From positions 1 through 36,537 of the IMG/VR virus record IMGVR_UViG_3300037521_000139: 36,537 nucleotides of DNA; one strand, given 5' to 3'. Position 1 is the stretch's first letter. Every line of letters begins with the position of its first letter. Below are positions 271 to 33,127 of the stretch, piece after piece. Both the position numbers and the translations under genes were made by a program. The stretch comes from a virus. Below the pieces are notes generated by a model that was not told where the DNA came from, did no database searches, and worked only from the letters and a program-made list of their open reading frames with translations.

Positions 271-654
271 ATGAATAAAACAATCCTATCATTGTTAGTT
301 GCTTCTCTCACGTTCGTAGGCGTTGCATTGGCTCAGGATTATACCTCCGTAATAGAAGGTTCCCCCCGAGTAGCCACTGTAACGTCGCTGGACACGGAAG
401 ATGCACTGACAATATCCGGCACGACCGGGTTTATCGAGATTAGCGCTACCACGGTAGCTACTAACACGCTCGTAGCCGCAACGATAAAGGGCCAGACGGC
501 CATTATAATCAATGTAGGCACTAACATAATCACCATTGCAGACGGGACTACCTTTGTTGGCTCCAGCGCTGCGGTTCTCTCCCAGCATGATAACATTACC
601 GTTATCGCTAATGCAGCACTGAATTGGGTCGAGATCAGCCAAACGGACAACTAG
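271..654 (+). CDS. Secreted beta-rich head-region protein of unknown function
   Basis: This 127-residue protein lies 4 bases after the scaffold stop and 12 bases before the capsid gene, the usual place of a head decoration or fibre protein. Residues 1-22 form a textbook Sec signal peptide: MNK, a hydrophobic core, then VALAQ before a predicted cut. The mature part is a Thr/Val/Ile-rich beta protein ending in NWVEISQTDN, which resembles small phage beta-fold decoration proteins. A signal peptide on a capsid-cluster protein is odd; see the separate finding. Function is not known; a decoration or surface role is inferred from position and fold type only. Confidence 0.75.
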   Translation: MNKTILSLLVASLTFVGVALAQDYTSVIEGSPRVATVTSLDTEDALTISGTTGFIEISATTVATNTLVAATIKGQTAIIINVGTNIITIADGTTFVGSSAAVLSQHDNITVIANAALNWVEISQTDN

Positions 655-666
655 GAGTAATTAATC

Positions 667-1515
667 ATGGGAATGGCAAACATAAAATCAGAACTATGGG
701 CAAGCGATATTATCGCGTTGCTCGAGGATTCGCTTATCGGCGCTGCGGTCGGAAACCGTAACATTGTAAAGACGGATCAGGGCGATACCATGCATATCGT
801 TGGCGCCGGTGAAGTCACCACGAGCGACTATGTGCAAGGCGTTGCGATCACGTACAGCGACCCGACCGATACGGATACCTCGTTCACGTACAACATTGAC
901 AAAAACTTCGCTATCATAGCTCACGATAAAGACGTGAAGCAGGCGGCAGTTGCTTGGCAGGGCTTGTACGCTTCGCGTGGTGCTCATAAGTTGAAGGACG
1001 CTATTGACGAGTCGATCTTTGCGGATCATGCGTCGTGGGGCCTCAACAACTTCGAGACGGGCTCGACGGATTGGCAGGTAGGAGCGGACGGCGGACAAAT
1101 GAATCGCCTCTTCGCTTCCGTAGCCGCACAGCTCGACACCGCGAACGCCGCACAGCAAGGGCGATACATGGTTCTGCCATCTATCGGTATCCAAGCGCTT
1201 CGGCTTCACTTGGGCGCCAAGGCTACGGAGCTGGGCGACCAGGTAAGCAATAGCGGTCTGGTAGGCCGGTTCTTAGGCTTCGATGTGTTTCATTCGAACA
1301 ACCTGACAACCGTTAGCACGACCGTACACGGTATGGCTGGCGTAACTGGCGACGGTTTCGCTTATGGTCAACAGATCGACCCTGACGATATCGAAGCTAT
1401 GCGCGACGTGGATCAGTTCGCAACGTACATCCGAGGCCGCGCTCTTGCGGGGCATAAGGTGTATCGCGCCGGCATCCTGGTAGACATCAACCTCAATACA
1501 AACCTGTTAGCGTAA
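667..1515 (+). CDS. Major capsid protein, P22-coat-like HK97 fold
   Basis: This 282-residue protein should build the icosahedral shell. The N-terminal third carries the P22-coat-family pattern: a DQGDTMHI strand, a DYVQG turn, then ITYSDPTDTDTSF followed by an aromatic, Asp-rich FAIIAHDKDVKQA segment. The central part has a helix-rich region (ALRLHLGAK), and the C-terminus contains a typical hydrophobic GHKVYRAGILVDINLN strand. The start at 667 has AGGAG at 653-657, nine bases upstream; a second Met two codons later is possible. It follows the scaffold gene, and a GC-rich hairpin lies just after it. Function is clear from sequence pattern and context. Confidence 0.88.
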   Translation: MGMANIKSELWASDIIALLEDSLIGAAVGNRNIVKTDQGDTMHIVGAGEVTTSDYVQGVAITYSDPTDTDTSFTYNIDKNFAIIAHDKDVKQAAVAWQGLYASRGAHKLKDAIDESIFADHASWGLNNFETGSTDWQVGADGGQMNRLFASVAAQLDTANAAQQGRYMVLPSIGIQALRLHLGAKATELGDQVSNSGLVGRFLGFDVFHSNNLTTVSTTVHGMAGVTGDGFAYGQQIDPDDIEAMRDVDQFATYIRGRALAGHKVYRAGILVDINLNTNLLA

Positions 1516-1530
1516 TATAACGGCTTGCAT

Positions 1531-1570
1531 GGGTGCCCTCGGCTCTCTCCCCTCCCTCTCGGGGGCACCC
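1531..1570 (+). terminator. GC-rich hairpin after the capsid gene
   Basis: GGGTGCCC (1531-1538) pairs perfectly with GGGCACCC (1563-1570) around a pyrimidine-rich loop of 24 bases. It lies in the only noncoding gap (1516-1593) of the head cluster, directly after the major capsid gene. There is no T-tract, so it may be an attenuator or an RNA 3'-end stabiliser rather than a strong intrinsic terminator; this would help capsid mRNA outnumber downstream message. Confidence 0.6.
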
Positions 1571-1593
1571 AACTAGCCAAGAAAGGATAAGTA

Positions 1594-1827
1594 ATGCCAA
1601 TACCAACGCCAACGAAAGAAGAGAAGGCCGCGAAGAAGGCGGCTGATATAGCGGCTCGGAAGAAGTACACCGCCGATACGCTCGAGAAGCAGAACGATAA
1701 AGTCGAGATTGTGAACGGTTTACGTGTTCGGCAATGCGCGAAGAGCGACTTGAAAGCCTTCGAAGCGCTCGGGTTTAAGGCCGTCAAGGCCGAGAAGCCC
1801 GCCAAGGCCAGCACTAAGGACGACTAA
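1594..1827 (+). CDS. Small highly charged protein in head cluster
   Basis: This 77-residue protein is very rich in Lys, Ala and Glu. The first 40 residues look like one amphipathic helix, and the middle has a small NGLRVRQCAKSDLKAFEALGF element followed by a Lys/Ala tail. AGAAAGGA upstream gives a good ribosome site. Its stop overlaps the next start (TAATG at 1825-1829). The compact middle segment and position between capsid and connector genes resemble small phage head proteins of unknown role. I cannot name the family. Confidence 0.75.
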   Translation: MPIPTPTKEEKAAKKAADIAARKKYTADTLEKQNDKVEIVNGLRVRQCAKSDLKAFEALGFKAVKAEKPAKASTKDD

Positions 1828-2231
1828 TGGCGGACTGGTCTCTAGGAACCATTACACGTAGCGGGGCGGATGGGTACTTTGCAGAGGCAAAGCACATCAA
1901 GCACGCTATATGGAGCTCCTACGGGACCAAAGACCGCGACGCTGCTGTGGCCCTCGCAGAAAGGAATATCTGGAGGGCACGCGGCACCAATTTAGACGAC
2001 GTAAGCGCATACACAGCCCTTGACCTAGTGCGGCATGACTACGCCGTATTCGAGCAAGCGCTTTACCTGTTGCAGAACTCAGACGCCGTATCGAACGGCG
2101 AGCAGACTGGTGTTAAGTACCCCGGACTCTTGGAAGGCACCGAGCCGACCAACGATATAGGCAGATTCGGCCCCGAGGCGCAACGCTGGATGGGCTGGAA
2201 CTACGGGCAGATCAAGATACAGAGGGGATAA
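1827..2231 (+). CDS. Putative head-tail connector (adaptor) protein
   Basis: The 134-residue product has a largely helical first half (DAAVALAERNIWRARG, then ALDLVRHDYAVFEQALYLLQNS), as in small connector proteins of the gp6/gp15 or DnaT-like head-completion group. It ends in a Trp/Gly-rich tail (RWMGWNYGQIKIQRG). It starts inside the TAATG overlap with the previous gene and stops 2 bases before the minor capsid gene. Position between capsid and neck genes supports an adaptor that docks on the portal. No diagnostic motif was seen, so the call is mainly by synteny. Confidence 0.6.
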   Translation: MADWSLGTITRSGADGYFAEAKHIKHAIWSSYGTKDRDAAVALAERNIWRARGTNLDDVSAYTALDLVRHDYAVFEQALYLLQNSDAVSNGEQTGVKYPGLLEGTEPTNDIGRFGPEAQRWMGWNYGQIKIQRG

Positions 2232-2233
2232 TC

Positions 2234-3307
2234 ATGGCCGACCAGCCGCTCCCGACGCTTTCCCGGCAGATCAAGTTCGGGCAAGCCGAAATGTCGAAGA
2301 TCCTCCTTGCCGCCCGCGAGTCGATAGAATCCCGCATTACCACGCTTTCCAAATCACGCAAGCTCCTACGCAAGCGCGAACGTGAGAGGATGTACCGCGG
2401 CATAGGCTCTATCTACGAGGAGCTTGACGGCGAGATATCCAGGTGGGCCGATGAATTGGCCGTAAGGACCGGCGACGCCGTAGGCAAAGAGACGTTCAAT
2501 GACATAGGCCAAAGAGCGGGCCTCACGAAGTTCTCACGCGAGCACGCGCAGGAATGGATGTCTATAGTAAACCCGAACAACCCAGCGCTGCTAGGCGCAT
2601 CTCAGACTGCTAGAAAGCCAACTCTGGGCGCATCTCAGACCGCCAGAATGAGCGTAGGCGACGTGTCGCAGCTACGATCTGCCACATTAGACGTGTTTCG
2701 CAAGTCTGCGATATCAGGCATGACGCAAGCGGCTATCTACCGCGAGCTCCGCGACAAGTTCGACAACCTGGCCGGCGGCGGCTTGAACTCCTGGCAATTC
2801 ATCTCTCGAGACGGTAAGAAGTGGAAAAACTCCAACTATTTCAACATGCTTACACGCACAGTATCCACTACAGTAGCCAGGGAGGCCTCTGCGGACGCCA
2901 TAGTCGACACCGGTAACGACTTAGCTACCATTGAGGGCGGCGGCGATCCCTGCCCCGTATGCTCCAACTGGCGAGGCGTAATCGTGTCCGTCACGGGCAA
3001 CGACACGCGGTTTCCCTCCAAGCAGCAAGCTATCGACTCGGGGGTATGGCATCCTAATTGCGTTTGTATGCTCCGCTACGTAGACCCGGACGCCTTCCCC
3101 GAAGAGATAGAGGCGCAGGCCAAGCTCGCCAATCCCGATAAGCCCACGAATAAGGAGTGGAACGCCTACGCGGAACGGATCCAGAACAAGGCCGAGCCTA
3201 GGATTGCCATAACCGAGAAAGGCGGGGCTCTACGTGTCAGCAATCGCAAAGATGCGAAGCTCAAGGACGATAACGTGGGTTCGGGCGAGGTTGAGCCTAC
3301 AAGCTAA
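2234..3307 (+). CDS. Minor capsid protein, SPP1 gp7 / Mu F-like
   Basis: This 357-residue protein has a helical, charged N-terminal half and the family's C-terminal cysteine/histidine cluster: GGGDPCPVCSNWRG (about residues 235-248) and GVWHPNCVCMLRYV (about 270-283), a CxxC...HxxCxC metal-binding pattern typical of Mu F/SPP1 gp7 head-morphogenesis proteins. In relatives such proteins sit inside the head near the portal and may help DNA ejection. Residues 118-136 hold a duplicated LGASQTAR unit (11-residue period; DNA copies at 2594-2607 and 2627-2640). The extreme 3' end overlaps a degenerate late-motif copy. Confidence 0.82.
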   Translation: MADQPLPTLSRQIKFGQAEMSKILLAARESIESRITTLSKSRKLLRKRERERMYRGIGSIYEELDGEISRWADELAVRTGDAVGKETFNDIGQRAGLTKFSREHAQEWMSIVNPNNPALLGASQTARKPTLGASQTARMSVGDVSQLRSATLDVFRKSAISGMTQAAIYRELRDKFDNLAGGGLNSWQFISRDGKKWKNSNYFNMLTRTVSTTVAREASADAIVDTGNDLATIEGGGDPCPVCSNWRGVIVSVTGNDTRFPSKQQAIDSGVWHPNCVCMLRYVDPDAFPEEIEAQAKLANPDKPTNKEWNAYAERIQNKAEPRIAITEKGGALRVSNRKDAKLKDDNVGSGEVEPTS

Positions 3308-3314
3308 GGCCAAA
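3297..3314 (+). promoter_or_regulatory. Degenerate late motif copy (CTACAA-N4-AGGCCAAA)
   Basis: CTACAA at 3297-3302 and AGGCCAAA at 3307-3314 keep the exact spacing of the five better copies but have two mismatches. It lies at the end of the minor capsid gene, upstream of the neck genes. It is weaker evidence than the other copies and may be chance. Confidence 0.4.
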
Positions 3315-3315
3315 T

Positions 3316-3510
3316 ATGAAGCCAATACGCCACATATTGCACAACAAGGGCGACGTGGAGACGTACATCGAGGCCGAGCAGGACGGTAATCGAATCAGTA
3401 TCAAGAGGATTTGCATAGACTATGATTGTAATGGAACTAAGGGGTTTGAGGCGGATAGAGATGCTACTCAAAAAGCTCGACGCGGATCTACGCGGAGAAG
3501 TGGCTCTTAG
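3316..3510 (+). CDS. Possible small overlapping protein
   Basis: This 64-residue frame starts just after the degenerate late motif and fills an otherwise empty 114-base gap after the minor capsid gene. Its first 45 residues look like a normal soluble protein (GDVETYIEAEQDGNRISIKRICIDYDC), but the last 30 overlap the next gene in another frame. No strong ribosome site is visible. It could be a genuine small gene or an untranslated leader of the neck gene; no function can be given. Confidence 0.4.
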   Translation: MKPIRHILHNKGDVETYIEAEQDGNRISIKRICIDYDCNGTKGFEADRDATQKARRGSTRRSGS

Positions 3511-3880
3511 GGCAAACAACCGCGTAGGCAAGACCGTGGCCGACTTGGCTGCTACATACTCGCCTATCTCACCGAAGAAGTCACAGGGCGGGGGCGAAGA
3601 GGCCGCGCCGGGAGGCTTGCAGAACTCCATACGCCACAAGGCCACCCCGGCCTACGTCGACATACACGTCCCGATCAACTCGCAGGCCGGGACGTATGCC
3701 GTCAAGATGCACGACAAGAAGCGCAAGGAGTGGTTTCGCAGGGGCAGGGGCACGGTCGCCAAGGGCCCGCAGGCGGACGACAAGTTCATAGAGAGGGCGA
3801 TTGGGGACTCATGGAAGGCGGGAATTATACGCAATATATGGTTCGGTGAAATACGCAAAGCAACGAGGAAGTTTAGATAA
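3422..3880 (+). CDS. HK97 gp10-like head-tail joining protein
   Basis: The 152-residue product begins with the hallmark layout of this family: a short strand then a long helix (LRRIEMLLKKLDADLRGEVALRANNRVGKTVADLAATYSPIS), followed by a basic linker and a beta part containing KMHDKKRKEWFRRGRG. The family forms a ring at the tail end of the connector. The chosen start is ATG 3422; ATG 3431 is equally possible. Its stop shares a base with the next start (TAATG). The identity rests on fold pattern and order between minor capsid and tail genes. Confidence 0.7.
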   Translation: MIVMELRGLRRIEMLLKKLDADLRGEVALRANNRVGKTVADLAATYSPISPKKSQGGGEEAAPGGLQNSIRHKATPAYVDIHVPINSQAGTYAVKMHDKKRKEWFRRGRGTVAKGPQADDKFIERAIGDSWKAGIIRNIWFGEIRKATRKFR

Positions 3881-4323
3881 TGCCAACGAGTACCAAAGAA
3901 TCATGGACCCTGGCCGAAACCTACATCTACAGGGAGCTATTGGAGGCCACGGGGCATAAGGACGCGCAAAACGCCTTCCTCGGGTTTCTACCCGACGGGC
4001 TACCGAATGTATTCTCGTTCAAGATGGACGGCGAAACCGCCGATCTTGCCATGATACGCAACGGCAAGACATGCACGCTAATCTTTGGCGCCCGGGTAGA
4101 GGGTTTCTTCACCGAACGGGCCATGGCTCAACAATTTTCTATGGCTATCATGGACATTCTACCCATCCGCAATGAATCAAATGTGCAATGGTTCAGGCCG
4201 TCGGCGGGGAGCGGGCCAAGGCTTCTACGCGATGGCCTCGAGCTAAAGGGCGGGCAGGTCGCCCCCGGCTTCCGCCTTTCTTGGGACTTCGAAGTGATCT
4301 TCAATACCTCGAAGGTATACTAA
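3880..4323 (+). CDS. Putative tail terminator / tail completion protein
   Basis: This 147-residue alpha/beta protein starts in the overlap with the gp10-like gene and precedes the major tail protein, the normal slot for a tail terminator that caps the tail tube. Visible features are an N-terminal helix (TLAETYIYRELLEA), alternating strands (LPNVFSFKMDG, TCTLIFGARVEGFF) and a closing strand (FRLSWDFEVIFNTS) that resembles the final strand of tail terminators. No catalytic motif is expected. The call is by synteny and secondary-structure impression. Confidence 0.5.
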   Translation: MPTSTKESWTLAETYIYRELLEATGHKDAQNAFLGFLPDGLPNVFSFKMDGETADLAMIRNGKTCTLIFGARVEGFFTERAMAQQFSMAIMDILPIRNESNVQWFRPSAGSGPRLLRDGLELKGGQVAPGFRLSWDFEVIFNTSKVY

Positions 4324-4324
4324 C

Positions 4325-4342
4325 CTTCAAGCATAGGCCAAT
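4325..4342 (+). promoter_or_regulatory. Putative late promoter motif before major tail gene
   Basis: CTTCAA (4325-4330), four bases, AGGCCAAT (4335-4342), then AGAAA. It lies directly after the tail-terminator stop and 27 bases before the major tail protein start. The motif matches the copies at 9696, 30145, 33085 and 35905 with identical spacing. I infer a promoter for the phage sigma factor; a repressor or RNA element is possible. Confidence 0.65.
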
Positions 4343-4369
4343 AGAAAGCCAATAATGGGAGTTTAACTC

Positions 4370-5062
4370 ATGGCAGACGTAGTAGTAGCTTCGGCGGCAA
4401 GCGACCTTTTTAGTCTACACGCCAATTTCGTAGAGCAGGGTAGTAGCGATTCGGACCTTGACGATTACGCGCAAACACCCGACGCCAACGGTGATGTTAA
4501 TGCCGGATGCGAGTCTGCGGCCTTCAATGCGCGCAACGAATACACCAATGAATTCAAGTTTTGCGGCACAGACATCGTATCTGACTTCGGTGTGGTTCTA
4601 TCTACCTTCGGGGTAATTGCGAACCTAAAGCAGATCACCGAAATCACGGTGCAATTCTCCAACACCGATTTTCCGATCATCAACGTAACGGGGCACAATC
4701 ACGACGCCCAGGCACACGGAGCGACCCCGGCCCTACCTACTTTCGACTTTTCCGCGGCGATTCCAGCCGTCACAGGTGGCGTGGGGGTACCCGACATCTG
4801 GAGCAATTCCGCCTCCGCTACATCAACGCCAACGAGCGTGACAGTCACCTTTGCTATCGACCACATAGACGCACTCGACGCGAACGGCGCGCACTTTGTA
4901 GGTACCAACAAGAATGGACGAGTGGACGTTACCGCGGATTACATCAACACGCCTACGCTCACGACTACAAACTGGAAGATAGATTCGCAAGTGCTCAACG
5001 ATTCCAACACCGATTTTGACACGTTCAACATTAGCGCGCATCGCTACTACACGAGAAACTAA
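4370..5062 (+). CDS. Putative major tail (tube) protein
   Basis: The 230-residue product is beta-rich and acidic, with a central segment NVTGHNHDAQAHGATPALPTF. It has its own late motif and a GGGAG ribosome site, consistent with a protein needed in high copy. It sits between the tail terminator and the tail chaperone/tape-measure genes, the standard place of the tail tube subunit. The stop overlaps a small downstream ORF (TAATG at 5060-5064). I recognise the role from position and composition; the sequence family is not one I can name. Confidence 0.65.
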   Translation: MADVVVASAASDLFSLHANFVEQGSSDSDLDDYAQTPDANGDVNAGCESAAFNARNEYTNEFKFCGTDIVSDFGVVLSTFGVIANLKQITEITVQFSNTDFPIINVTGHNHDAQAHGATPALPTFDFSAAIPAVTGGVGVPDIWSNSASATSTPTSVTVTFAIDHIDALDANGAHFVGTNKNGRVDVTADYINTPTLTTTNWKIDSQVLNDSNTDFDTFNISAHRYYTRN

Positions 5063-5208
5063 TGGCGAAGCAAGAAAAAGATCAATCAGAAGCAACTACA
5101 CCTAAACGGGTAACGCATGGCACGACCTCGTGCGGCCCCAATCGCGGAAAGAAAAATGCCCCAACTAAGCCCACTAGCCAAGAAAGCGCTACAAAGGGCG
5201 AAGTCTGA
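5062..5208 (+). CDS. Small basic ORF between tail genes
   Basis: This 48-codon frame starts in a TAATG overlap with the major tail gene, the junction type used throughout this genome. The product is Lys/Thr-rich and low in hydrophobic residues, so likely disordered. It overlaps the start of the next gene by about 50 bases in another frame. It could be a short tail-chaperone-like gene (the usual slot of a G/GT pair) or just a coupling reading frame. No slippery sequence is obvious at its end. Confidence 0.45.
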   Translation: MAKQEKDQSEATTPKRVTHGTTSCGPNRGKKNAPTKPTSQESATKGEV

Positions 5209-5875
5209 CCACGGCATTGCCTTCGACCCCGTAGACGATTTCGAGGACATACTTGAACTCCACACGCTCGCGGAGGCCGTCACCAATCCCACGCTGACGG
5301 AGGACGAGTTATCCATAATCACGCCCCACGCATACGCGGGCAGCCTAAAGATATGCAAGCCCACGATTGGTGCAATACATTGGTACAATACCTACGCCGC
5401 CAAGTGGTTTGCTGACGACGTTGAGGCGTCTACCCTATCCCTAGCTTATGCAATAGCGCTCGGGAGACACCCGGACAAGATGATGGAACTAGGCGATAAG
5501 GGGAAGGCGCGTAAGGCGGTATTCGCCTGGTCTGCTGGCCTAGATTGCACATACGACGAGCTCGCCGCGGCCCTTGCGACTCTTTCTTCCGAAAGCCCGG
5601 AGGAAAGAGAGGATGACGACGCCCGATCCTACGGGCCAATAATTTCCCTGCTAGTGAGTGAGTACGGCCAAACGCCAGACTATTGGCTGTGGGAAACGTC
5701 TTACGACGTATGCGAGGCTCTGATAAAGGACTACAAGGTCAGGAAGGATGCGGAAGCGCAAGCCGCCGGGGGCGCTTCTGGATCAGGCCACGCAATGGAC
5801 CCCCACCTCGAGTCTGTTAGAGCCAATGGGCTACTCATGAAGGCCATCACTAGGATGATAGAGGCCAGGAAATGA
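5156..5875 (+). CDS. Tail assembly protein upstream of tape measure
   Basis: The product is 239 residues from ATG 5156, chosen because GGAAAG lies just upstream; an in-frame ATG at 5117 would add 13 Arg/Ala-rich residues. The sequence is helical and acidic (FDPVDDFEDILELHTLAEAV; LATLSSESPEEREDDDARSYG) and ends in a long helix. The stop overlaps the tape-measure start by four bases. Position and helical, acidic nature suggest a tail assembly chaperone, though it is longer than most. Family not recognised. Confidence 0.6.
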   Translation: MPQLSPLAKKALQRAKSDHGIAFDPVDDFEDILELHTLAEAVTNPTLTEDELSIITPHAYAGSLKICKPTIGAIHWYNTYAAKWFADDVEASTLSLAYAIALGRHPDKMMELGDKGKARKAVFAWSAGLDCTYDELAAALATLSSESPEEREDDDARSYGPIISLLVSEYGQTPDYWLWETSYDVCEALIKDYKVRKDAEAQAAGGASGSGHAMDPHLESVRANGLLMKAITRMIEARK

Positions 5876-7158
5876 CGGAAGAGCTTAGTCTTAGGATAAA
5901 GGCAGTAAACGCCACCAAGGCGGCCATCGACGCATCCGTGAGGGGCATTAGGAGGCTTGGGCGCGTAAGCAAGAGGGTAGCCGCTGGAATGAGGCGATCA
6001 TTCTCCGTAGCGTCTGCGGGCATCAAGCGCACTATGGGCGCGGCCTTTGCGGGCGTCGCTTTAGCGGCTGCCGGCTTGGGGGCAACTCTCAAAAAGAGTT
6101 TCGAGTTTGAAACGCTCACCACTCAATTTGAGGTGCTTTTCGGGGATTTAAAGAAGGCGCAGGATCACATGAAGGCGCTGAAAGAGTTTAGCGCCAAAAC
6201 GCCATTCGAGATTTCGGATATAGCCGTTGCATCAAGGCAGTTAAATGTATTCTCGGGGGGATTGCTCGGCGCCACGGACAGCCTGACGCTGGTAGGAGAT
6301 GCAGCGAGCGCGACGGGTCAGGAGATGAAGGATGTCGCCTTCTGGTTTGGCAGGGCTTTCTCGGCAGTAAAGGCGGGGCAGCCATTCGGGGAGGCCGCGC
6401 TTCGCCTACAGGAGATGGGCATCCTGTCAGCCGAGGCACGTCTTAAAATGGACAAGCTCTCCGAGGCGGGTAAGGGGTCGCAGGAAATATTTGCAGTTCT
6501 AACAGGGGAGTTTGGGAAGTTCGCCGGGGGAATGGATAAGGCGAGCAAGACGGGCGACGGCCTTGTATCTACCCTAAAGGACAATTTAAATCAGACGCTA
6601 GCCCAGATAGGCGATACATTTCAGGACGTAGGAAAGAACAAAATTGCCTCCATGATTGAATGGATGGTCAAGCTCAGGGACGGCGGGGAGATAGAGGACT
6701 GGGCGGATAATGTTTTCGCCGCACTGGAAAAGGCCAAGGGCGCATTTGGCAAGTTCAAAGCGGATCTACAGAAAACAGCCGCCTTCCTAGGGGCCCTTTC
6801 CGGGGGGGCGTCTATCAACGAGGCTGTCAATATAGCCAATTCACAGGCCGTAGCGAATAAGCTAGCCGCAGGCAAGGCCGATGCAGTAGGCACACACTTC
6901 CCATCAGTGCCTAATGAATTTGGAATAAAGAGCGCTACAACATCGGTAAGCTCGGAAAGTGCAGTCAACGATATAGTGAAAAAGGTTCTCTCTAGTAGCG
7001 GAGTAAGGTCAGCAACCGGTAAGGGGCTGCCGTCCGTTGGCCTTGGGCAAGTCTTCTCTACTGCGAGGGGTAATTCTGGCAAGCCAGAGCTGGGAACGAT
7101 CAGCAATCCTACGCACGTGGTAGTGGTCAAAGACACTTCGGCCCCGGGGGCGATATAA
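5872..7158 (+). CDS. Tape measure protein (short)
   Basis: This 428-residue protein has the tape-measure hallmarks: a basic N-terminal helix, an Ala/Gly-rich hydrophobic stretch near residues 50-70 (GAAFAGVALAAAGLGATL), and the conserved block with FETLTTQFEVLFGDLKKAQDHM, a KTPFEISDIAVASRQL motif and a GDGLVSTLKDN segment, all typical of the TP901-type core. It sets tail length during assembly and may enter the host membrane at injection. At roughly 0.15 nm per residue the tail would be only about 60-65 nm, short for a siphovirus; that number is a rule-of-thumb inference. Confidence 0.85.
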   Translation: MTEELSLRIKAVNATKAAIDASVRGIRRLGRVSKRVAAGMRRSFSVASAGIKRTMGAAFAGVALAAAGLGATLKKSFEFETLTTQFEVLFGDLKKAQDHMKALKEFSAKTPFEISDIAVASRQLNVFSGGLLGATDSLTLVGDAASATGQEMKDVAFWFGRAFSAVKAGQPFGEAALRLQEMGILSAEARLKMDKLSEAGKGSQEIFAVLTGEFGKFAGGMDKASKTGDGLVSTLKDNLNQTLAQIGDTFQDVGKNKIASMIEWMVKLRDGGEIEDWADNVFAALEKAKGAFGKFKADLQKTAAFLGALSGGASINEAVNIANSQAVANKLAAGKADAVGTHFPSVPNEFGIKSATTSVSSESAVNDIVKKVLSSSGVRSATGKGLPSVGLGQVFSTARGNSGKPELGTISNPTHVVVVKDTSAPGAI

Positions 7159-7517
7159 TGGCAATCACAGCGGACAAACAAGCGGGCTGGCAGTTGATAC
7201 GATGGACCCCACAAAGCGAGTACAGGGAGAACGGCCCCGACCTCGAGCGCAGAAAGCACTATGTTATAGAACGATTCAACGACTACGGAAACGTGACGTC
7301 GTTCACGGACGTAACCGGGGAAACGACACCAGGCGACACCATCCCCTTTAGCGTGGGCGAGGACAACATCCTTGCCGGCGGACCCAGTGAGATTTACGAG
7401 TGCAGCCTTGACTCCATACACCCCGAGCCACGTTACGCCAACGTACTACGCCGCACGCAGGTATGGGAGCACTACACGGAGTGGGAGACGGTTGACTATG
7501 CCGACTTCTTGCCCTAG
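7158..7517 (+). CDS. Tail-tip region protein, unknown
   Basis: This 119-residue acidic protein shares its first base with the tape-measure stop (TAATG). It is rich in Trp, Tyr and Glu/Asp, with strands such as LIRWTPQSEYRE and HYVIERFNDYGNVTSF and an aromatic C-terminus (VWEHYTEWETVDYADFLP). No cysteine or catalytic motif stands out. Its place after the tape measure suggests a distal tail or baseplate part. I do not recognise the family. Confidence 0.6.
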   Translation: MAITADKQAGWQLIRWTPQSEYRENGPDLERRKHYVIERFNDYGNVTSFTDVTGETTPGDTIPFSVGEDNILAGGPSEIYECSLDSIHPEPRYANVLRRTQVWEHYTEWETVDYADFLP

Positions 7518-7519
7518 TA

Positions 7520-8044
7520 ATGGCACGCAATGACCATAGACTCCTAAACGACCAATGGCCTGCCGATAAGAAGTGGGACCGGCGGAAGCTATCCACGTTC
7601 TTCGAGACCATCGCGCACCTGTTCAACAACATGAACATCATCGGTGGCACGATCCGCAAGAACAACAGCGGTATGTGGATACAGGTTGACCAGGCTATAA
7701 GCTACCCGGCATCTTTCGACGTTCTTAGCTTCGACCACGCAAGCGGAACGATTACTATTGCCGCGGGGTACTGGTCTGTGGGCCTCACGGCTATCAATGT
7801 TGCAGAAGTGGAAGTGACCGTCAATGGGGGGGCCGTGGATACGCCTCATTTCGTATACATGGAACACACCATAGGCAGCGGAACGGCTACTATTAACTCC
7901 GACTCTACAGCCACATATCCGGCATCGACGCAGAGCGTGGCTAGAAAAGTGCTATGGGCCGTCTACAAGGTGGCCGACCCTGACAGGGTGAGGGTATCAC
8001 TAGATCACCGGCACGACCCCTTAACGGCGTGGGTGAAGATCTAG
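7520..8044 (+). CDS. Tail-tip / fibre-base protein, unknown
   Basis: This 174-residue protein begins two bases after its neighbour. A helical start (DRRKLSTFFETIAHLFNNMN) is followed by a region of short beta strands with repeated Gly, Thr and Ser turns (GTITIAAGYWSVG, GSGTATINSDSTATYPAS), as in receptor-binding or baseplate beta proteins. It immediately precedes the first secreted tail protein. Function is inferred from position only. Confidence 0.6.
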   Translation: MARNDHRLLNDQWPADKKWDRRKLSTFFETIAHLFNNMNIIGGTIRKNNSGMWIQVDQAISYPASFDVLSFDHASGTITIAAGYWSVGLTAINVAEVEVTVNGGAVDTPHFVYMEHTIGSGTATINSDSTATYPASTQSVARKVLWAVYKVADPDRVRVSLDHRHDPLTAWVKI

Positions 8045-8046
8045 CC

Positions 8047-9693
8047 ATGAAGCGCGTAGCGCTATTCGCCCTCTTCCTCGCTATGGGGCAATCATCCCTC
8101 GCTCAATGGTCCGTAATGCCCATAACAAATAACACACTCGTCATCGAGACGAACACAGTAGCCATATCGAACGCATATACAGAACTGATAGGAGCCCTCG
8201 ACGAAAGGCTCCTCGCCATAGGGCAAAGCGCTTTCGAGTATAAAGACACGATCACTTACCAAACAACCAACATGGGTACCAATTTCACATCTGAAGTTCT
8301 CACAAACGAGTTCACTAATTTTGGAGGCGGGTATCTCCCCCTGGGCATGACGGAGGCCATGCAGGACAAAATAGGAACCATAATATCTAGCTACCTCAAT
8401 CACACCCTGGCCGATACCAACGAACTATACGACGAATGGTTCGAGGATAACACCAACGCTCCGCCGCACGCATGGACGACTACCGGGCTCTTTGTCAATG
8501 CAGGCATCGGCTATGCGTCGACAAATATAGCCGCGTGGCTTCATCTACCGGAGAGGGTGGATAGGAAAATCATTCTCGGGGAACTCTCTTTTATAGGCAC
8601 TAACGGCGGGTATACTAATTTCATATCCCAAAGCGGCAACAGGATAATAACAAGCACGAACGGGTGGCGGTTTGTTGATAGGGACGTATTTCCCCAACCA
8701 TTCACGAACGATGAATCGCAAGTATTGATTTCGTACCATGCAGGGAGCACAAATCCAACACCGCAGAACGGCGGGCAGGATATACAGATAAGGGGTAGGA
8801 TATATCACGGCGGGCAGTGGGGCGAGGGGCATAGCATCTTCACCGTACACGCAGATTATGAAACCAACCACTACCCATCCGCGCCATTTCCGTTTAGGTA
8901 TTACGACGTTTCAAATCTGGTAAGCAGGGATGAGAATGGATACACGGGTGATACGTTTGTTGTTTTCAGAACGAACAACACCACGTACGGGCATCTCGAC
9001 GCCCCGGCGGTAGGCTTTGTATTGGTGGAGCATTTAAACGAAATGTACGAGGCTCTCAACTCGCTTGTATGGACGCTCTCTACCTCGAACTACTGGTCGA
9101 CAAACGGGCTTGCGCTAAACAGAAAAGACGGCGGCAGCATACAGACTATCAACCCAACAACAAACGGAACATGGGCGGACGCTAAATCAGAGGCGGAGTC
9201 AATATGGACAACAAATGTAACAGAGGGCGGGCCCGCGGCGCCGAAGTCATGGTCGCTACAGCGAACAAGGAACCTATCAGAGATACCCTTGACCACCAAT
9301 CTTGTCGCGGTACTTGACTCCCTATCTTCATCGCCATCAGCCGAAAAGCCCCCGCCGGCCAGCAACATTACAGCAGCCGCAGACTTCTATGTCATTGCTG
9401 ATATTTTACCTGTGAACCTGGGCGGTCCTACGCTATTCAATAACGAAAAGGACGGATACGGCGGCGTGCTGAGATCGAACCTATACACGTTCGTTGCAAC
9501 AGCTACCGCAAGCAATCTATCCGCATCAGCATTACCCGTAGGCGACCTCGCGGCCTTTACCCCCTGGCCCGGCACAGACTCCCTTACCTTAGGCTACGAG
9601 GAATCAAGCGGATTTGCCGCATCCGCCACCCCCATTGCCGTATTTAGGTGGGACGCGGACGAGACGAACGGATTCCGGTATGTAGCACCTTAA
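8047..9693 (+). CDS. Large secreted Thr/Asn-rich tail-region protein
   Basis: From ATG 8047 the product has 548 residues; an in-frame GTG at 8029 inside the upstream gene is less likely because the ATG gives a clean signal peptide (MKRVALFALFLAMGQSSLAQ). The mature part is rich in Thr-Asn pairs and beta turns, with a short coiled region near residues 45-60 and 95-125 (GMTEAMQDKIGTIISSYLNH). There are no cysteines in obvious pairs and no enzyme motif. Lying between the tail tip and the fibre gene, it may be a receptor-binding protein or an exported adhesin. Composition resembles secreted proteins of PVC-group bacteria, an impression only. Confidence 0.65.
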   Translation: MKRVALFALFLAMGQSSLAQWSVMPITNNTLVIETNTVAISNAYTELIGALDERLLAIGQSAFEYKDTITYQTTNMGTNFTSEVLTNEFTNFGGGYLPLGMTEAMQDKIGTIISSYLNHTLADTNELYDEWFEDNTNAPPHAWTTTGLFVNAGIGYASTNIAAWLHLPERVDRKIILGELSFIGTNGGYTNFISQSGNRIITSTNGWRFVDRDVFPQPFTNDESQVLISYHAGSTNPTPQNGGQDIQIRGRIYHGGQWGEGHSIFTVHADYETNHYPSAPFPFRYYDVSNLVSRDENGYTGDTFVVFRTNNTTYGHLDAPAVGFVLVEHLNEMYEALNSLVWTLSTSNYWSTNGLALNRKDGGSIQTINPTTNGTWADAKSEAESIWTTNVTEGGPAAPKSWSLQRTRNLSEIPLTTNLVAVLDSLSSSPSAEKPPPASNITAAADFYVIADILPVNLGGPTLFNNEKDGYGGVLRSNLYTFVATATASNLSASALPVGDLAAFTPWPGTDSLTLGYEESSGFAASATPIAVFRWDADETNGFRYVAP

Positions 9694-9695
9694 AC

Positions 9696-9713
9696 CTTCA
9701 ATTTAGGGCCAAT
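9696..9713 (+). promoter_or_regulatory. Putative late promoter motif before fibre gene
   Basis: CTTCAA (9696-9701), four bases, GGGCCAAT (9706-9713), followed by ATAAA. It occupies the only gap (9694-9736) between the two big tail genes, 23 bases before the fibre start. Same spacing as the other late motif copies. Confidence 0.65.
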
Positions 9714-9736
9714 ATAAAGCATCGGAGCGCCATAAT

Positions 9737-12325
9737 ATGCGAAAACTATCGGCCTTTCTCTTGGCCTTCCTTATATCTTTCACAGTATACGCGCAATCAT
9801 TCCGCGTGTTTCTGGACACACAGCACCCCGAATCAGGCTTCGATGTAACGATTTTCAGGGGCGCCACGCCTACCATTCGGGCCGTCATGCTCGACGGGGG
9901 GAGCCCGTTTACCAACCTCAACGGGTGGGGCGGCACGTTCAATATCTACTCGAACGAGTTTGCGGCCAATCCATATACCTTCGCGGAAACGTCGATTGAC
10001 ACGAATAACGGCTATATCGACTTCAAGCTCGCCACGATCGGCATAACGCAGGGGGAATACTCGGCTTCGTTCCTTATCACCAACGCTACGGATGATCTGG
10101 TATGGGGCGGTCAGGGTGATATAAACATACTCCCCTCCGCCATCACGGGTACATCCCTGACGGACAACACCAACTCGAGCCCGTTCAACATGGCGGGGTA
10201 CAACTTCTTCAACAATACACAGTTTGTCGACTCCGTTCTCGTAACCTACGGGACATCTACCAACGCCTCGAGCGTTTCCGGCAATGTGCTTCATATCGAG
10301 TTTGACACCACTGCCGGCGGTGGGTCGGGCGACCTAACGGAGATCCTTGTCGGGGGAATCCTTGCGCTCACCAACGGCACGGGTCCGATCCCGTTGGTGC
10401 ATCTAGGCACCGAGCAACTCACGAACGCCCTAGACGCCTTCTATGACGATATGCTCCCCTTGGCCGGAGGCGTTATGCAGGGCGAGATATTCATGGGTAC
10501 TAATGCGTTTCACTTTACCAACCTTACGAAGTCGGTAACATTTAAACTCGACTCCGACGGAGCTACGTCCAGGCTCCTCATAAACGGCGCCACATTAGGC
10601 GTCGACGACATTGTAGCCGCGAGCACCATTTCGGCGGATAGCGGACCCAATGTGTTTGGCGGTGTAGTAAGGGCGCTTGGAAGCGTCGCTACGAATGATG
10701 TAACTATACGCGACGACATCACCTACGGACTACTTGACACAAACGGAGACGTAGGCACGAACGCCGCGCAGCTATCGATAGGCGACCACGGACATGCGAA
10801 TGAGGCGGCGGGTGCCGCGTACTTGGCGAGCAATCAACACTTTAGCGGGGAAAACTCATGGGCAGAGGTTCAGCATTATAGCAACCGAGCGGCGTTCCAC
10901 ATGGGGGCGACTAATCGTATTCACATAGAAGGAAACACTACCGCACGCACAGCCCCGAGAGCGCTTTTAAAGGTGGATCTTGACGCGAAGGTGGCTGGAA
11001 CAAGAGCCTTTGAAATGCACCTAGACGATGGTGGCTTTGCTGAGTTTGTCGGAGTCGAGCTTGACATAGGATCAAGCATTTCTACGGGCATGATTAGCGT
11101 GGGCAACGCTGTTAATGTTGACTTGTCCGGCGCTACTGGCGGAGAATTTGTCATGTATGAAGCGTCCGCCGTTGGAATACCCGTGGGCGTAAAAGCGGTA
11201 GGGCTAGGCGTGTCCGCCGGCGTCAGTCCCATCGTACAGGCGGTGGGAGTTCCAGCTGCCGCGGGGTACGCAACAAACACAGCGTCGGGTTTATCTACGG
11301 GGCCATTCGCTTCCGCACTGACGAACATAGAGGTATTCAGCGCTAATGGGGACGAAATCCGCATAGAGGATACCGCCCAATTCTCGGAAATAGAAGTAAC
11401 TTTGTCAACCAATGCTAATCAGGATGTTAAATTAGAGTTCTTCTATTCATCTACTGCCGGCCAGACCAATATGACACAGTTTTTCCCTATTGATTTTTCA
11501 GAGGGCTTCCATCAGAACGGCGGTATTTTTTGGGTAATATCCGAATTCCCTACCACCTGGGAGCTCAACGAGTCGTCAAGGTTCGCTATCAAGATGGTTC
11601 GCACAAAGGCGGGGCTAGGAACTAAGCCCACCGAATTGCAATTACTCATTGACGTCACAGTTCCGCGAGGATGGGATCAGTTCGCCAACATCAACGCGGC
11701 CTCCGCAACGCTAGGCGTATTCAACGTAGGTGCAGGCCAGCAATGGACGAACAGCGTTTCGTTGGGCGCAGACAGCAACCTTGAATCAGCCGTCAATAGC
11801 GCATGGGTCATGCAGCAGATAGCCGACAACAGTGGCGGCAGCGGCGGCGACTCCTCCCCCGTAACGAATCAATACATGTTCGTTTACACGCACACGAACG
11901 ACCTCGTTCTCTCAGCGGGCACATATACCGTCATGCCGTTTCATCATGTGATTGCTGATTACTCTGAGGGTAATTACAATACGAACGGTTCGATCTTCAC
12001 GCCCCCTGTAGATGGCGTTTATGGCTTTGCTCTTCTAGCGAACGTAGGAAGCGTAAACAGTGGAGATGCCGTAAATTACTTTCTCACTTTAAATGGAGGG
12101 TCTCCGTCTACGCAGGACTTAATCACCGTTGATTTAGGTAGAGGGTCTGTAGGAGGAGACACTATTTATTCATCGGCTTATGTAGAAATATGGCTCCCTG
12201 CTGGCAGAACCGTCGTGCCGTGGACTTGGGCTACGGGTGGGGATACTCTCTTAGGAGGCAATACAATCACAAAACCGCGAGGGCGGCTATATGCAGGTAA
12301 ACTTGTAAGAGAGGGGCCGCAATGA
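9737..12325 (+). CDS. Tail fibre / receptor-binding protein with signal peptide and C1q-like C-terminus
   Basis: The 862-residue product starts with a Sec signal peptide (MRKLSAFLLAFLISFTVYAQ). Residues about 30-140 look like a baseplate-upper-protein-type beta domain (TIFRGATPTIRAVMLDGG ... EYSASFLITN). Around residues 235-260 the segment DMLPLAGGVMQGEIFMGTN matches the common phage-fibre pattern PLxGGxMxGxIxMG. A Gly/Ser linker near residue 710 leads to a C-terminal jelly roll with the C1q signature GSIFTPPVDGVYGFALLANV. Thus it reads as a trimeric fibre with a binding head. It has its own late motif and overlaps the next gene by four bases. The signal peptide is the oddity. Confidence 0.8.
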   Translation: MRKLSAFLLAFLISFTVYAQSFRVFLDTQHPESGFDVTIFRGATPTIRAVMLDGGSPFTNLNGWGGTFNIYSNEFAANPYTFAETSIDTNNGYIDFKLATIGITQGEYSASFLITNATDDLVWGGQGDINILPSAITGTSLTDNTNSSPFNMAGYNFFNNTQFVDSVLVTYGTSTNASSVSGNVLHIEFDTTAGGGSGDLTEILVGGILALTNGTGPIPLVHLGTEQLTNALDAFYDDMLPLAGGVMQGEIFMGTNAFHFTNLTKSVTFKLDSDGATSRLLINGATLGVDDIVAASTISADSGPNVFGGVVRALGSVATNDVTIRDDITYGLLDTNGDVGTNAAQLSIGDHGHANEAAGAAYLASNQHFSGENSWAEVQHYSNRAAFHMGATNRIHIEGNTTARTAPRALLKVDLDAKVAGTRAFEMHLDDGGFAEFVGVELDIGSSISTGMISVGNAVNVDLSGATGGEFVMYEASAVGIPVGVKAVGLGVSAGVSPIVQAVGVPAAAGYATNTASGLSTGPFASALTNIEVFSANGDEIRIEDTAQFSEIEVTLSTNANQDVKLEFFYSSTAGQTNMTQFFPIDFSEGFHQNGGIFWVISEFPTTWELNESSRFAIKMVRTKAGLGTKPTELQLLIDVTVPRGWDQFANINAASATLGVFNVGAGQQWTNSVSLGADSNLESAVNSAWVMQQIADNSGGSGGDSSPVTNQYMFVYTHTNDLVLSAGTYTVMPFHHVIADYSEGNYNTNGSIFTPPVDGVYGFALLANVGSVNSGDAVNYFLTLNGGSPSTQDLITVDLGRGSVGGDTIYSSAYVEIWLPAGRTVVPWTWATGGDTLLGGNTITKPRGRLYAGKLVREGPQ

Positions 12326-12786
12326 TTCGATTTTACATAGCTCTATTGGCTTCGATTCTCGCATGTACTGCACAGGCCGACATAGTTTCAGAAAAGGATG
12401 ACGTAACGGGCAAGCAAGTTGTTCACTGGCTTGTCACGGTTAAAGTCGAGACTATAGACGACGCCAAAGACACTTCTCCTACGGGTAAGTGGGCTAGGTC
12501 GGGACAGGGCGGCATAGAGTATGTAGATAAATGGGAGTGGCCCTACTTGCCCCCCGACCTTGTAGACCTTACGAGTGTGACGAACGCCATCGCATGGGCG
12601 GAGGATCAGGACACCGAGAAGAAATCTCTGCTTGATAACATGAGCATAGAGAACAAGGCCACAGCGAAGATTCTATTCGATATTCTCAACCTTGTACGCA
12701 CGAACCACGGCGACTCCGCGCTATCCAAAGCGCAGTTTGAAGGCGCAGTTCTGAAGCCTGCTATAGAATGGGCGAAGGATAACTAA
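12322..12786 (+). CDS. Small secreted protein after the fibre
   Basis: This 154-residue protein starts in an ATGA overlap with the fibre gene. Residues 1-20 are a signal peptide (MIRFYIALLASILACTAQAD); the Cys at 15 is within the core rather than a clear lipobox. The mature part has a beta section (KQVVHWLVTVKVETIDD), Trp-rich WEWPYLPPDLVDLTSVTNAI, and a helical C-terminus. Its pattern resembles fibre-associated or chaperone-like small tail proteins, but no family is recognised. It is coupled to a small membrane protein downstream. Confidence 0.65.
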   Translation: MIRFYIALLASILACTAQADIVSEKDDVTGKQVVHWLVTVKVETIDDAKDTSPTGKWARSGQGGIEYVDKWEWPYLPPDLVDLTSVTNAIAWAEDQDTEKKSLLDNMSIENKATAKILFDILNLVRTNHGDSALSKAQFEGAVLKPAIEWAKDN

Positions 12787-13049
12787 TGACCCCCACAGGC
12801 AAAATCATTGCTGCTGTAAATGGGAGGGGCTACAAGATAGCCTTCGTTACATGCCTCGCCGTTTCTGGATTTCTCGGCGGCGGTTGGGCCAACTCCGCAA
12901 CGGACAACATAACGAAGATCTCCACACGTCCTACCCGGATCGAAGCTCGTCAGATGATCGACGACAAGGTAGTACCGCTGCACGACGACATAAAGGAAAT
13001 TAGGGACGATGTGAAGTCCATATACGCCCTGCTACTAAAAAGGAAATAA
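12786..13049 (+). CDS. Single-span membrane protein with C-terminal coiled coil
   Basis: This 87-residue protein begins in a TAATG overlap. A hydrophobic segment covers about residues 16-34 (YKIAFVTCLAVSGFLGGGW), followed by a charged helix (HDDIKEIRDDVKSIYALLLKRK). This layout is shared by phage holin-like and inner-membrane spanin-like proteins, so it is the best lysis candidate here, but it is also common in other phage membrane proteins. It sits among secreted proteins at the end of the late module, where lysis genes usually lie. Confidence 0.6.
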   Translation: MTPTGKIIAAVNGRGYKIAFVTCLAVSGFLGGGWANSATDNITKISTRPTRIEARQMIDDKVVPLHDDIKEIRDDVKSIYALLLKRK

Positions 13050-13050
13050 C

Positions 13051-13623
13051 ATGAAGGCAATACTCGTAGTATTAACCATTGCCGCTCTCTCGACTTCGGC
13101 CCTCGCGGAAGGTGGGCCGTGGAGTGATGATAACTGGTCGTCAAGTCACAACATAGGCGCGCATACCGGCATAGACGGCGCGCTCACCGGGTCGGGCTTC
13201 TCGCTCGTAGCAGCAACGGATGTTCTCACATGGGGCCGCAAGCTCGAGGCCTTCAACGAAGAGCGTGACCGCAAGGGCGCCTACGTCATGGAGTACGTTC
13301 CATTCCATCAAGCCGGCAAGCAATACGCAGCGGATGGAACGGTAGACGCCGCGGGGCAGGTTGAGGAATCTACGGAGCGCCAGGGTTTCTTTGCCGCAGT
13401 AGCGGATCACGGCCAGCGTAATGCGGCCAAGTATACCGTAGGCACCGTGCTAGGTTTGGGATACCTCCTATACGACGCGAACAAGGATTCAGGCGGAGAC
13501 ACGCACAACGGGGATAACTTCTTCGGTAACGATAATGTCAAGGGCGACGGGAATCAGAAGGATTCCGACAACGCCAACGATAAATCTTCAAGCTCCAGCG
13601 AAAACCCCCCGCCGAGTGAGTGA
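13051..13623 (+). CDS. Secreted protein with disordered Asp/Asn/Ser tail
   Basis: The 190-residue product has a clear signal peptide (MKAILVVLTIAALSTSALAEG). The mature part contains a helical middle (LTWGRKLEAFNEERDRKG), a short hydrophobic Gly-rich stretch near residues 130-140 (VGTVLGLGYLLYDANKD) that could cross or insert in a membrane, and a low-complexity tail with Asp/Asn/Ser and final PPPSE. No muralytic motif is seen. Given the position it could act in lysis or at the cell surface. It overlaps the next start. Confidence 0.65.
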   Translation: MKAILVVLTIAALSTSALAEGGPWSDDNWSSSHNIGAHTGIDGALTGSGFSLVAATDVLTWGRKLEAFNEERDRKGAYVMEYVPFHQAGKQYAADGTVDAAGQVEESTERQGFFAAVADHGQRNAAKYTVGTVLGLGYLLYDANKDSGGDTHNGDNFFGNDNVKGDGNQKDSDNANDKSSSSSENPPPSE

Positions 13624-13817: not shown

Positions 13818-13829
13818 GAATACATAGAC

Positions 13830-25269: not shown

Positions 25270-25282
25270 TGGGAGCTTTTCT

Positions 25283-31343: not shown

Positions 31344-31728
31344 GAAACCCGGCACATTCGAGAAAAACGACCCCCGCATCAACAGAAAGGGCCGGCTACC
31401 AGGTAAGATAAGCATCCCCGACCTGCTCAAGCGCATCGGCGCCGAGAACATCAAGACGGGTGACGGCGAGATGCAGAAGCTCGAGGTGGTCATGCGTAAG
31501 GTTTTCAAATACGCGGTCGAGGGTAAGTCCTGGGCCGTTCAATTCATAGCCGACAGAATGGAAGGCAAGCCCGCGCAATCGTTGGAGCTATCCGGGGGGC
31601 TAGACCTCGAGAACGCTACGGCGAGCCAATTAACAGATGACCTACTTGCAACCATCATCACCGGATCAGATACGGGAAGCGGCGAGGGAGCTACTGCGCC
31701 GAAGAAAAGCGCGAAAAAGCCTTCTTGA
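31336..31728 (+). CDS. terS: Terminase small subunit-like protein
   Basis: The 130-residue product starts with KPGTFEKNDPRINRKGRLPGKISIPDLLKRIG, a pattern typical of a group of small terminase or DUF5681-like proteins, followed by a helical segment (VMRKVFKYAVEGKSWAVQFIADRMEGKPAQ) and a Ser/Thr/Lys tail. It precedes the large subunit and overlaps it by 92 bases in another frame, an unusually long overlap. It should recognise phage DNA for packaging. Confidence 0.75.
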   Translation: MPRKPGTFEKNDPRINRKGRLPGKISIPDLLKRIGAENIKTGDGEMQKLEVVMRKVFKYAVEGKSWAVQFIADRMEGKPAQSLELSGGLDLENATASQLTDDLLATIITGSDTGSGEGATAPKKSAKKPS

Positions 31729-33082
31729 TTTCCTAGCCTACGTGTGGTGGTACCCCGACCCCCTCCACATAGGCAAGCACACCAAGGCTATCTGCGACGA
31801 GCTCACCGAGGCCGTTGAGAACTACCGCAAGGGCATATCGACGTACCTGCTCATTCAGGTACCCTATCGTCACGGTAAGAGCGACATCCTTTCCAGGGCC
31901 TTCCCGGCGTACTTCCTCTCAAGCTGTGCCGATAAAGACCCATCGCTTATACAAGCGGCGTATGGCGGCGGTTTGGCCGAGGGCTTCTCGAAGGATTGCA
32001 AGCGTATCATCAATTCCGACCCGTTCAAAGCGCTGCACCCCGGCATATCCATAGAGCATGGTAGCGACACCATAGCCGAATGGGCGATCGAAGGCAGCAC
32101 CGGTAGGGCGAACTTTGTCGGGTTTGGCGGATCCGCGGTCGGTAAAGGCGCGCATTTCCTAGGTATAGACGACTATTGCAAGTCACGCGCCGAGGCTAGA
32201 AGCCTTACGCTTCGCAACTCCGTATGGGATGCGTTTAGAATCGACCTCATGAGCCGCTTGGCGCCAGTGCATATAGTCGCCATCACCGCGACTCCGTGGC
32301 ACGTAGACGACGTCTCAGGCCGCTTAATCAAGCTCATGGCGGAAGATCCCGACTTCCCTAGATTCAAGATTCTACGCTTTCCGGCTACAAACAAGGACGG
32401 AAGCTACCTTTTCCCGCAGCTATACGGTGACGAGTGGTACAAGGCGCAGTACGCGCTACAGGGCTCGCTATCATCGGCCAACCTGGATTGCAACCCGCTC
32501 GAGGAGGGCGGCAACCGCTTCGATATGACTAAGATCCAGTACCACGACACGCTCGACGACTTCCCCAAGACCAAGTACGTGCGCGCTTGGGACTTGGCTA
32601 GCTCGAAGAAGGAGCGCGGCTCGAGCGATCCCGACTACACCGTGGGCATCCGCGGAACTGTCACAAAAGTAGACAGTATTGAGCATCTATGGATAGCCGA
32701 TGCCAAGGATTGCCGGGAAGAAGCGCCCAAACGTGACAAGCTCATCCTGGCGACAACGGACGCCGACGATCCAGCCGTAAGCGTCATAGTAGAGCGATTC
32801 GGCGCGTACAAAGACGCCTATACGTCCCTAAAGGCCACGCTACATGGTAAACGCATGGTCAAGGGGTCTATGCTACCCGGCGATAAGGAAGTGAAGGCAG
32901 CGCCTATGGAGCAGATATTCTATGCCGGCAACGTGCATTTACTCAAAGCGCCGTGGAATAAACGCTTTATCGAGCATTTCACATCGTTCCCCGACGGCAC
33001 ACACGACGACTACGTGGACGCAACCGCCGTGCTCTACCACGAATTCGACAAGCCCACGTCTCGCCTCATTATGACACGCTAA
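31637..33082 (+). CDS. terL: Terminase large subunit
   Basis: The 481-residue motor has the ATPase parts: a variant Walker A (IQVPYRHGKSDIL, residues about 73-85), Walker B (HFLGIDDYCKSRAEA, near residue 175) and a coupling motif ITATPWH. The nuclease domain follows with RAWDLASSKKERGSSDPDYT (first Asp of the RNase H-like site), a VERFGAYKD segment and FPDGTHDDYVDATAV (final Asp pair). It packages DNA and cuts it at the end. The start is assigned inside the small-subunit gene; a later start is possible. Confidence 0.9.
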   Translation: MTYLQPSSPDQIREAARELLRRRKARKSLLDFLAYVWWYPDPLHIGKHTKAICDELTEAVENYRKGISTYLLIQVPYRHGKSDILSRAFPAYFLSSCADKDPSLIQAAYGGGLAEGFSKDCKRIINSDPFKALHPGISIEHGSDTIAEWAIEGSTGRANFVGFGGSAVGKGAHFLGIDDYCKSRAEARSLTLRNSVWDAFRIDLMSRLAPVHIVAITATPWHVDDVSGRLIKLMAEDPDFPRFKILRFPATNKDGSYLFPQLYGDEWYKAQYALQGSLSSANLDCNPLEEGGNRFDMTKIQYHDTLDDFPKTKYVRAWDLASSKKERGSSDPDYTVGIRGTVTKVDSIEHLWIADAKDCREEAPKRDKLILATTDADDPAVSVIVERFGAYKDAYTSLKATLHGKRMVKGSMLPGDKEVKAAPMEQIFYAGNVHLLKAPWNKRFIEHFTSFPDGTHDDYVDATAVLYHEFDKPTSRLIMTR

Positions 33083-33084
33083 AC

Positions 33085-33102
33085 CTTCAAGTTAAGGCCA
33101 AT
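33085..33102 (+). promoter_or_regulatory. Putative late promoter motif before portal gene
   Basis: CTTCAA (33085-33090), four bases, AGGCCAAT (33095-33102), then ATAAA. It fills the gap between terminase and portal, starting two bases after the terminase stop and 25 bases before ATG 33128. This copy is the closest to the consensus. Confidence 0.7.
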
Positions 33103-33127
33103 ATAAAACCGCATTAGGGGCTTTTCT

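Follow-up and report, generated by a model that had tools for sequence, protein, structure and literature searches.

The subject of this analysis is the 36,537-nucleotide virus record IMGVR_UViG_3300037521_000139 (the window, meaning the whole stretch analysed), a complete circular tailed-phage genome of 36.5 kb with identical 127-bp ends, in which six late-module genes, named here by their first nucleotide, encode proteins that begin with predicted Sec-type leaders. One of these, the predicted tail fibre 9737, carries directly behind its leader a domain modelled with the fold that docks receptor-binding fibres on siphophage tails, and the homologous fibre of a diverged relative has kept the leader. 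Phage tails are assembled in the cytoplasm, for which reason export tags on fibres are odd and suggest that the fibres may be added outside. We tentatively propose, at just short of an even chance, that the phage produces its fibres as precursors with Sec leaders, that these are exported and processed, and that the mature fibres are attached to tails outside the cytoplasm, probably when the cell lyses. The part of the literature covered by our search yielded no tailed phage whose tail fibres have such leaders.

Sec-type leaders in the late module

Leaders were called using a homemade rule (not SignalP) that looks for charge in the n-region, a hydrophobic core free of charges, and a cleavage site of the -3/-1 type. 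When calibrated on Escherichia coli K-12 at a score of 12, the rule called 9 of 24 exported and 0 of 30 cytosolic proteins and is therefore conservative. A score of at least 12 was reached in the window by 271, 8047, 9737, 12322, 13051, and 34783 only, which are exactly the genes for which a first-pass annotation, made from the letters alone, had reported signal peptides; two lower-scoring matches, 18153 and 18305, are short membrane proteins. The predicted leaders with their cut sites are MNKTILSLLVASLTFVGVALA^Q, MKRVALFALFLAMGQSSLA^Q, MRKLSAFLLAFLISFTVYA^Q, MIRFYIALLASILACTAQA^D, MKAILVVLTIAALSTSALA^E, and MKKILILAALMISVLTTAHA^A, all of which show the charged n-region, the hydrophobic core, and the small residues at -3 and -1 that are expected of Sec/signal peptidase I substrates. 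Five of the leader ATGs are preceded at a distance of 6-10 nt by a Shine-Dalgarno-like sequence; at the sixth, that of 12322, the match is weak.

Among genes of at least 100 amino acids (aa), leaders were found in 6 of 38 in the window and in 1 of 170 in eight control phages, whose coding sequences were taken almost entirely from structural regions (Fisher test treating genes as independent, P = 1.6e-4), which bears out the earlier suggestion that such a set is rare in phages. The sole control gene with a leader adjoins the lysozyme gene in a lysis cassette. Verrucomicrobia phage P8625, likewise a small siphophage, arranges its late genes in much the same way, with a tape measure, a tail fibre, and a lectin-like gene, but it lacks the Thr-Asn excess described below and none of its 52 proteins had a signal peptide in a published SignalP run (PMC4642752).

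All six genes lie on the + strand. Because the record is circular with a 127-bp end repeat, the late module spans its ends, and 34783 and 271 therefore lie close to each other, next to the portal, scaffold, and capsid positions. The 127-aa protein of 271 (271..654; signal peptide 271-333, 21 aa; rule score 12.9) is encoded directly before the major capsid gene, and the 141-aa protein of 34783 (34783..35208; signal peptide 34783-34842; rule score 14.95) between the portal and scaffold positions. The tail-fibre slot holds the 548-aa protein of 8047 (8047..9693; signal peptide 8047-8103), and the 862-aa predicted tail fibre of 9737 (9737..12325; signal peptide 9737-9793) is followed by the 154-aa protein of 12322 (12322..12786; signal peptide 12322-12378). 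The 190-aa protein of 13051 (13051..13623; signal peptide 13051-13107) is encoded in a lysis-like region. The first-pass annotation had placed five of the six next to capsid or tail genes; this holds for 271, 34783, 8047, and 9737 but not for 12322 and 13051, which belong to the tail-end/lysis region and may be ordinary periplasmic accessories. Not all six proteins need share one function. Their mature parts contain no cysteine in 1902 residues, versus 16 cysteines in 2979 residues of the other structural proteins.

Family assignments for the smaller proteins were few. The mature part of 271 weakly resembles a phage depolymerase C-terminal beta-sandwich (PF25692, E 3.5e-4, just under the cut-off) and had no other relatives in the searches made, profile searches gave no informative family match for 12322, and an AlphaFold model of 34783 gave no usable structure (pLDDT 33).

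A predicted docking fold behind the leader of 9737

The mature N-terminal domain of 9737 (9791..10126, + strand), which begins at the predicted cleavage site, was modelled using AlphaFold together with its homologue from the nearest relative, and the best of five models had a mean pLDDT of 81. When the model was compared with known structures using Foldseek and VIA-align, in which Ig-like folds formed a background at Z 7.0 and below, its best matches were phage tail domains at Z 8.0-10.6, namely TP901-1 BppU and domains of 80alpha, NF5, Douge, and the T5/DT57C tail-tip proteins. The predicted model matched TP901-1 BppU (3uh8) at Z 9.3, with a root-mean-square deviation of 3.4 over 103 residues, 4v96 at Z 10.6, and 80alpha 6v8i at Z 9.9; among viral structure models, many BppU-type and tail proteins matched as well. 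The model aligned from its residue 1 onto residue 3 of BppU, so that leader removal would leave a docking domain of native length. At its other end, the C-terminus, 9737 may resemble C1q.

The BppU fold docks receptor-binding fibres on the tails of siphophages such as TP901-1 and 80alpha. The 9737 domain resembles BppU of TP901-1, and its counterparts in 80alpha and NF5, in its predicted N-terminal docking fold (Z 9.3-10.6), its position in the tail module, and its place as the first domain of a receptor-binding protein, and it differs in standing behind a Sec leader, which BppU does not have. We predict from the model that it is a BppU-type docking domain for the distal tail.

Relatives of the leader-bearing fibres

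The nearest relative found was IMGVR_UViG_3300022413_000006 (G002), with a terminase large subunit (TerL) 57% identical and a capsid protein 44% identical to those of the window. Its tail-fibre slot encodes proteins of 402 and 1554 aa with strong leaders, and the positional counterpart of 8047 is among the leader-bearing proteins. The 1554-aa fibre, which matches PHROG tail fibre family 9942, shares its N-terminal region with 9737 at about 37-38% identity (E 3e-19); the leader is kept in both diverged fibres, with differing leader sequences. In the tail module of both phages, all open reading frames longer than about 210 aa that follow the tape measure are leader-bearing, which leaves no leaderless fibre candidate in either module, and the leader proteins are therefore probably the virion's own receptor-binding set. 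The shared export programme suggested by the first-pass annotation is thus supported by the calibrated leaders, by their rarity in the controls, and by their retention in the fibre slot of G002, where the fibre N-domain is down to about 37% identity.

Other searches yielded little. By sequence search, phages yielded almost no relatives of the leader proteins, single-sequence searches of viral contigs found no relatives of the capsid or leader proteins, 9737 had no match in plasmids, and genome scans with alignments of the fibre domain and TerL found no prophage or host. A leaderless protein of G004, one of two more distant TerL relatives, looked BppU-like by eye and was set aside when it did not align to the fibre domain. 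A weak capsid match led to the bacterial contig MW495066, in which only four proteins pass the leader rule, too small a set for a comparison of Thr-Asn pairs (1 observed versus 3.7 expected). This record, MW495066.1, is named 'Microcystis phage MaAM05' and carries a wealth of bacterial housekeeping genes, among them those for ribosomal proteins, secE, smc, and ftsH; it resembles a piece of bacterial chromosome that includes a short prophage-like segment. As a separate observation, G002 has two tandem major capsid genes (224-1060 and 1152-1988), each about 43% identical to the window's single one.

Thr-Asn pairs in the mature proteins

The first-pass annotation had also described the mature parts as rich in Thr-Asn (TN) pairs, unlike the other phage proteins. 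Overall this was confirmed, with 49 TN pairs observed versus 13.9 expected in the six mature proteins and 17 versus 17.7 in the remaining proteins of the phage; the excess is uneven, being carried by 8047 (21 versus 4.8 expected) and 9737 (21 versus 5.6). In these two, TN was the most enriched dipeptide (42 versus 10.3), while the other four together had 7 versus 3.3, of which 34783 contributed 3 versus 1.0 and 13051 none. The reversed pair, NT, was not enriched. The same division appears in G002, where the three leader proteins had 38 TN pairs versus 17.7 expected and the other proteins 19 versus 15.5. Within the G002 fibre (9567-14231), the first 700 residues held 14 versus 4.2 expected and the repeat-rich rest 5 versus 6.5, a distribution that looks as if the tip had come from elsewhere.

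Several ordinary sources of the signal were set aside. All eight Thr-Asn codon pairs are used, which rules out a codon or DNA repeat and places the excess at the protein level. The glycosylation sequons N-X-S/T, D/E-X-N-X-S/T, and D-S/T-A/I/L/V/M/T, the last being the Bacteroidota glycosylation motif, were not enriched. Nor is TN a general trait of exported proteins, as 24 from E. coli, including fimbrial and curli proteins, had 27 versus 30.0 expected, and the proteins of the eight control phages had no excess. The TN excess may be a sign that the proteins are adapted to the extracytoplasmic side of the phage's host, and its confinement to leader-bearing proteins hints that exported proteins in that host group have a feature not described so far.

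Proposed assembly of the fibres and competing explanations

If the fibres are completed outside the cytoplasm, 8047 and 9737, and perhaps the small capsid-region proteins 271 and 34783, would be made as Sec pre-proteins whose leaders the host Sec machinery is predicted to recognise. Signal peptidase would cut the A-x-A-type site and, judging from the predicted fold, leave 9737 with a complete BppU-type N-terminal docking domain. The mature fibres would be kept in the periplasm or on the cell surface while the leaderless heads and tails are built in the cytoplasm, and lysis would bring docking domains and tails together, the fibres attaching from outside. Finished particles of P22 and T4 can take up tailspikes and long tail fibres, respectively, in vitro. 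The TN excess, which tracks leader status in both phages, and the lack of cysteine in the mature parts of the six proteins favour extracytoplasmic joining. Virion proteins made with Sec leaders are otherwise familiar from filamentous phages, whose coat proteins carry them and whose particles are assembled in the membrane and then extruded; the window phage differs in being tailed, with a terminase, portal, major head protein, and tape measure. A broader reading, to which we give clearly less than an even chance, is that a whole lineage of tailed phages completes virion assembly outside the cytoplasm, its fibres and possibly head decorations being Sec-exported, trimmed, perhaps modified at Thr-Asn sites, and docked at or after lysis.

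Several points weigh against extracytoplasmic joining. We know of no tailed phage that completes its virions outside the cytoplasm, and the tailed-phage receptor-binding proteins known to us are all made and attached within it. Export, cleavage, and virion presence of 8047 and 9737 are read from sequence and a predicted fold rather than from experiment. Alternative starts lie near the leader ends of 8047 (ATG 24) and 34783 (ATG 30), and 9737, which has no ATG near its cut site, has a GTG at codon 24; leaderless forms of these proteins are therefore possible. The docking-domain model was built from a two-sequence alignment, with pLDDT varying from 56 to 81 across the five models, and the Pfam BppU_N profile (PF10651) gave no match at E up to 1 in the window or in G002, for which reason we describe the domain as BppU-like and do not file it as a member. 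The leader pattern was seen in two phages only: G004 and G005, the more distant TerL relatives, have no leader and no TN excess on their identified structural genes. Within G002, a third fibre-slot protein (553 aa, with a lectin domain) has a weak leader scoring 10.1, and no leader gene occurs at the capsid positions, so the capsid-region leaders of 271 and 34783 are not shared.

The main rival to joining outside the cytoplasm, which we consider unlikely, is that the exported fibres are not virion parts and remain on the surface of the infected cell, where they would act as adhesins or decoys or keep other phages out. The MAT fibres of Bdellovibrio bacteriovorus offer a precedent, being phage-like trimeric fibres that reach the bacterial surface with a signal peptide and a beta-rich N-domain (PMC10769870), and the G002 fibre matches one of them, Bd2133, at E 8e-7. 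Within the G002 fibre, however, that match falls in the repeat-rich portion, and 9737 matched no MAT fibre; moreover, display on the cell would leave the tail module with no other fibre candidate. As in the window, the phage-like fibre modules of MATs come after a signal peptide and a beta-rich N-domain, but MATs are products of bacterial genes and are shown on the predator surface, whereas the window genes lie in a phage tail module. The MAT N-domain was reported to have no PDB homologues (PMC10769870), and the 9737 domain, which has such homologues and looks BppU-like, is set apart from it by description only.

A second reading dispenses with a shared programme altogether, 12322 and 13051 being ordinary periplasmic lysis accessories and the fibre genes having been captured, leaders included, from secreted adhesins of the host. 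Phages do carry exported lysis proteins, as the lysozyme-adjoining control gene recalls, the leader proteins stand almost without phage relatives, and TN pairs that favour the first 700 residues of the G002 fibre over its tip are what module swapping would give. We nonetheless judge this improbable, as the domain directly after the leader in the homologous fibres of the two phages is a phage docking domain and not a host adhesin domain, and four of the leader genes are at capsid or tail positions. It is more doubtful still that the leaders stay on through cytoplasmic assembly, the hydrophobic N-termini serving in the virion (e.g., in membrane contact) or being inert. Such a course would need no new assembly route, given that known tailed-phage virions assemble in the cytoplasm, but it sits poorly with the full n-h-c layout and A-x-A-type cut sites, with retention of the leader by two diverged phages despite its differing sequence, and with a TN excess that divides leader-bearing from other proteins.

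The interpretation offered by the first-pass annotation is partly supported by these results. The sequences do not look like a surface layer or an envelope change, and a coat for released virions comes closest among the options it had named, since the fold predicted for the main exported protein is that of a fibre domain which docks on virions, although tail fibres rather than a coat are indicated. A Sec leader before a fibre docking domain, kept in two diverged phages, points to extracytoplasmic virion completion or to exported phage-fibre adhesins, and either, if true, would change how such genes are annotated.

Other features of the genome

Profile matches identified terminase, portal, major capsid, minor head, and short tape measure genes. 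The terminase large subunit (31637-33082) and portal (33128-34648) form a block at 31637..34648 and, like the major capsid protein (667..1515; PHROG 267, E 1.7e-29), have neither a leader nor a TN excess. The leaderless tape measure protein (5872..7158; PHROG 973, E 1.9e-17) marks the upstream limit of the fibre module; all four genes lie on the + strand. Elsewhere in the window, a Mom-family protein at 29541-30155 (PF25680, E 1.1e-24) suggests Mu-like DNA modification, and a sigma-70-like protein at 21825-22733 has weak matches to regions 2 and 4. The phage also encodes an SPFH/Band 7 (stomatin-like) protein at 25259-25828 (PF01145, E 1.3e-8), which is overlapped by a short open reading frame at 25720-25941 with the lipoprotein-like motif ATILGGC, perhaps encoding a small lipoprotein.
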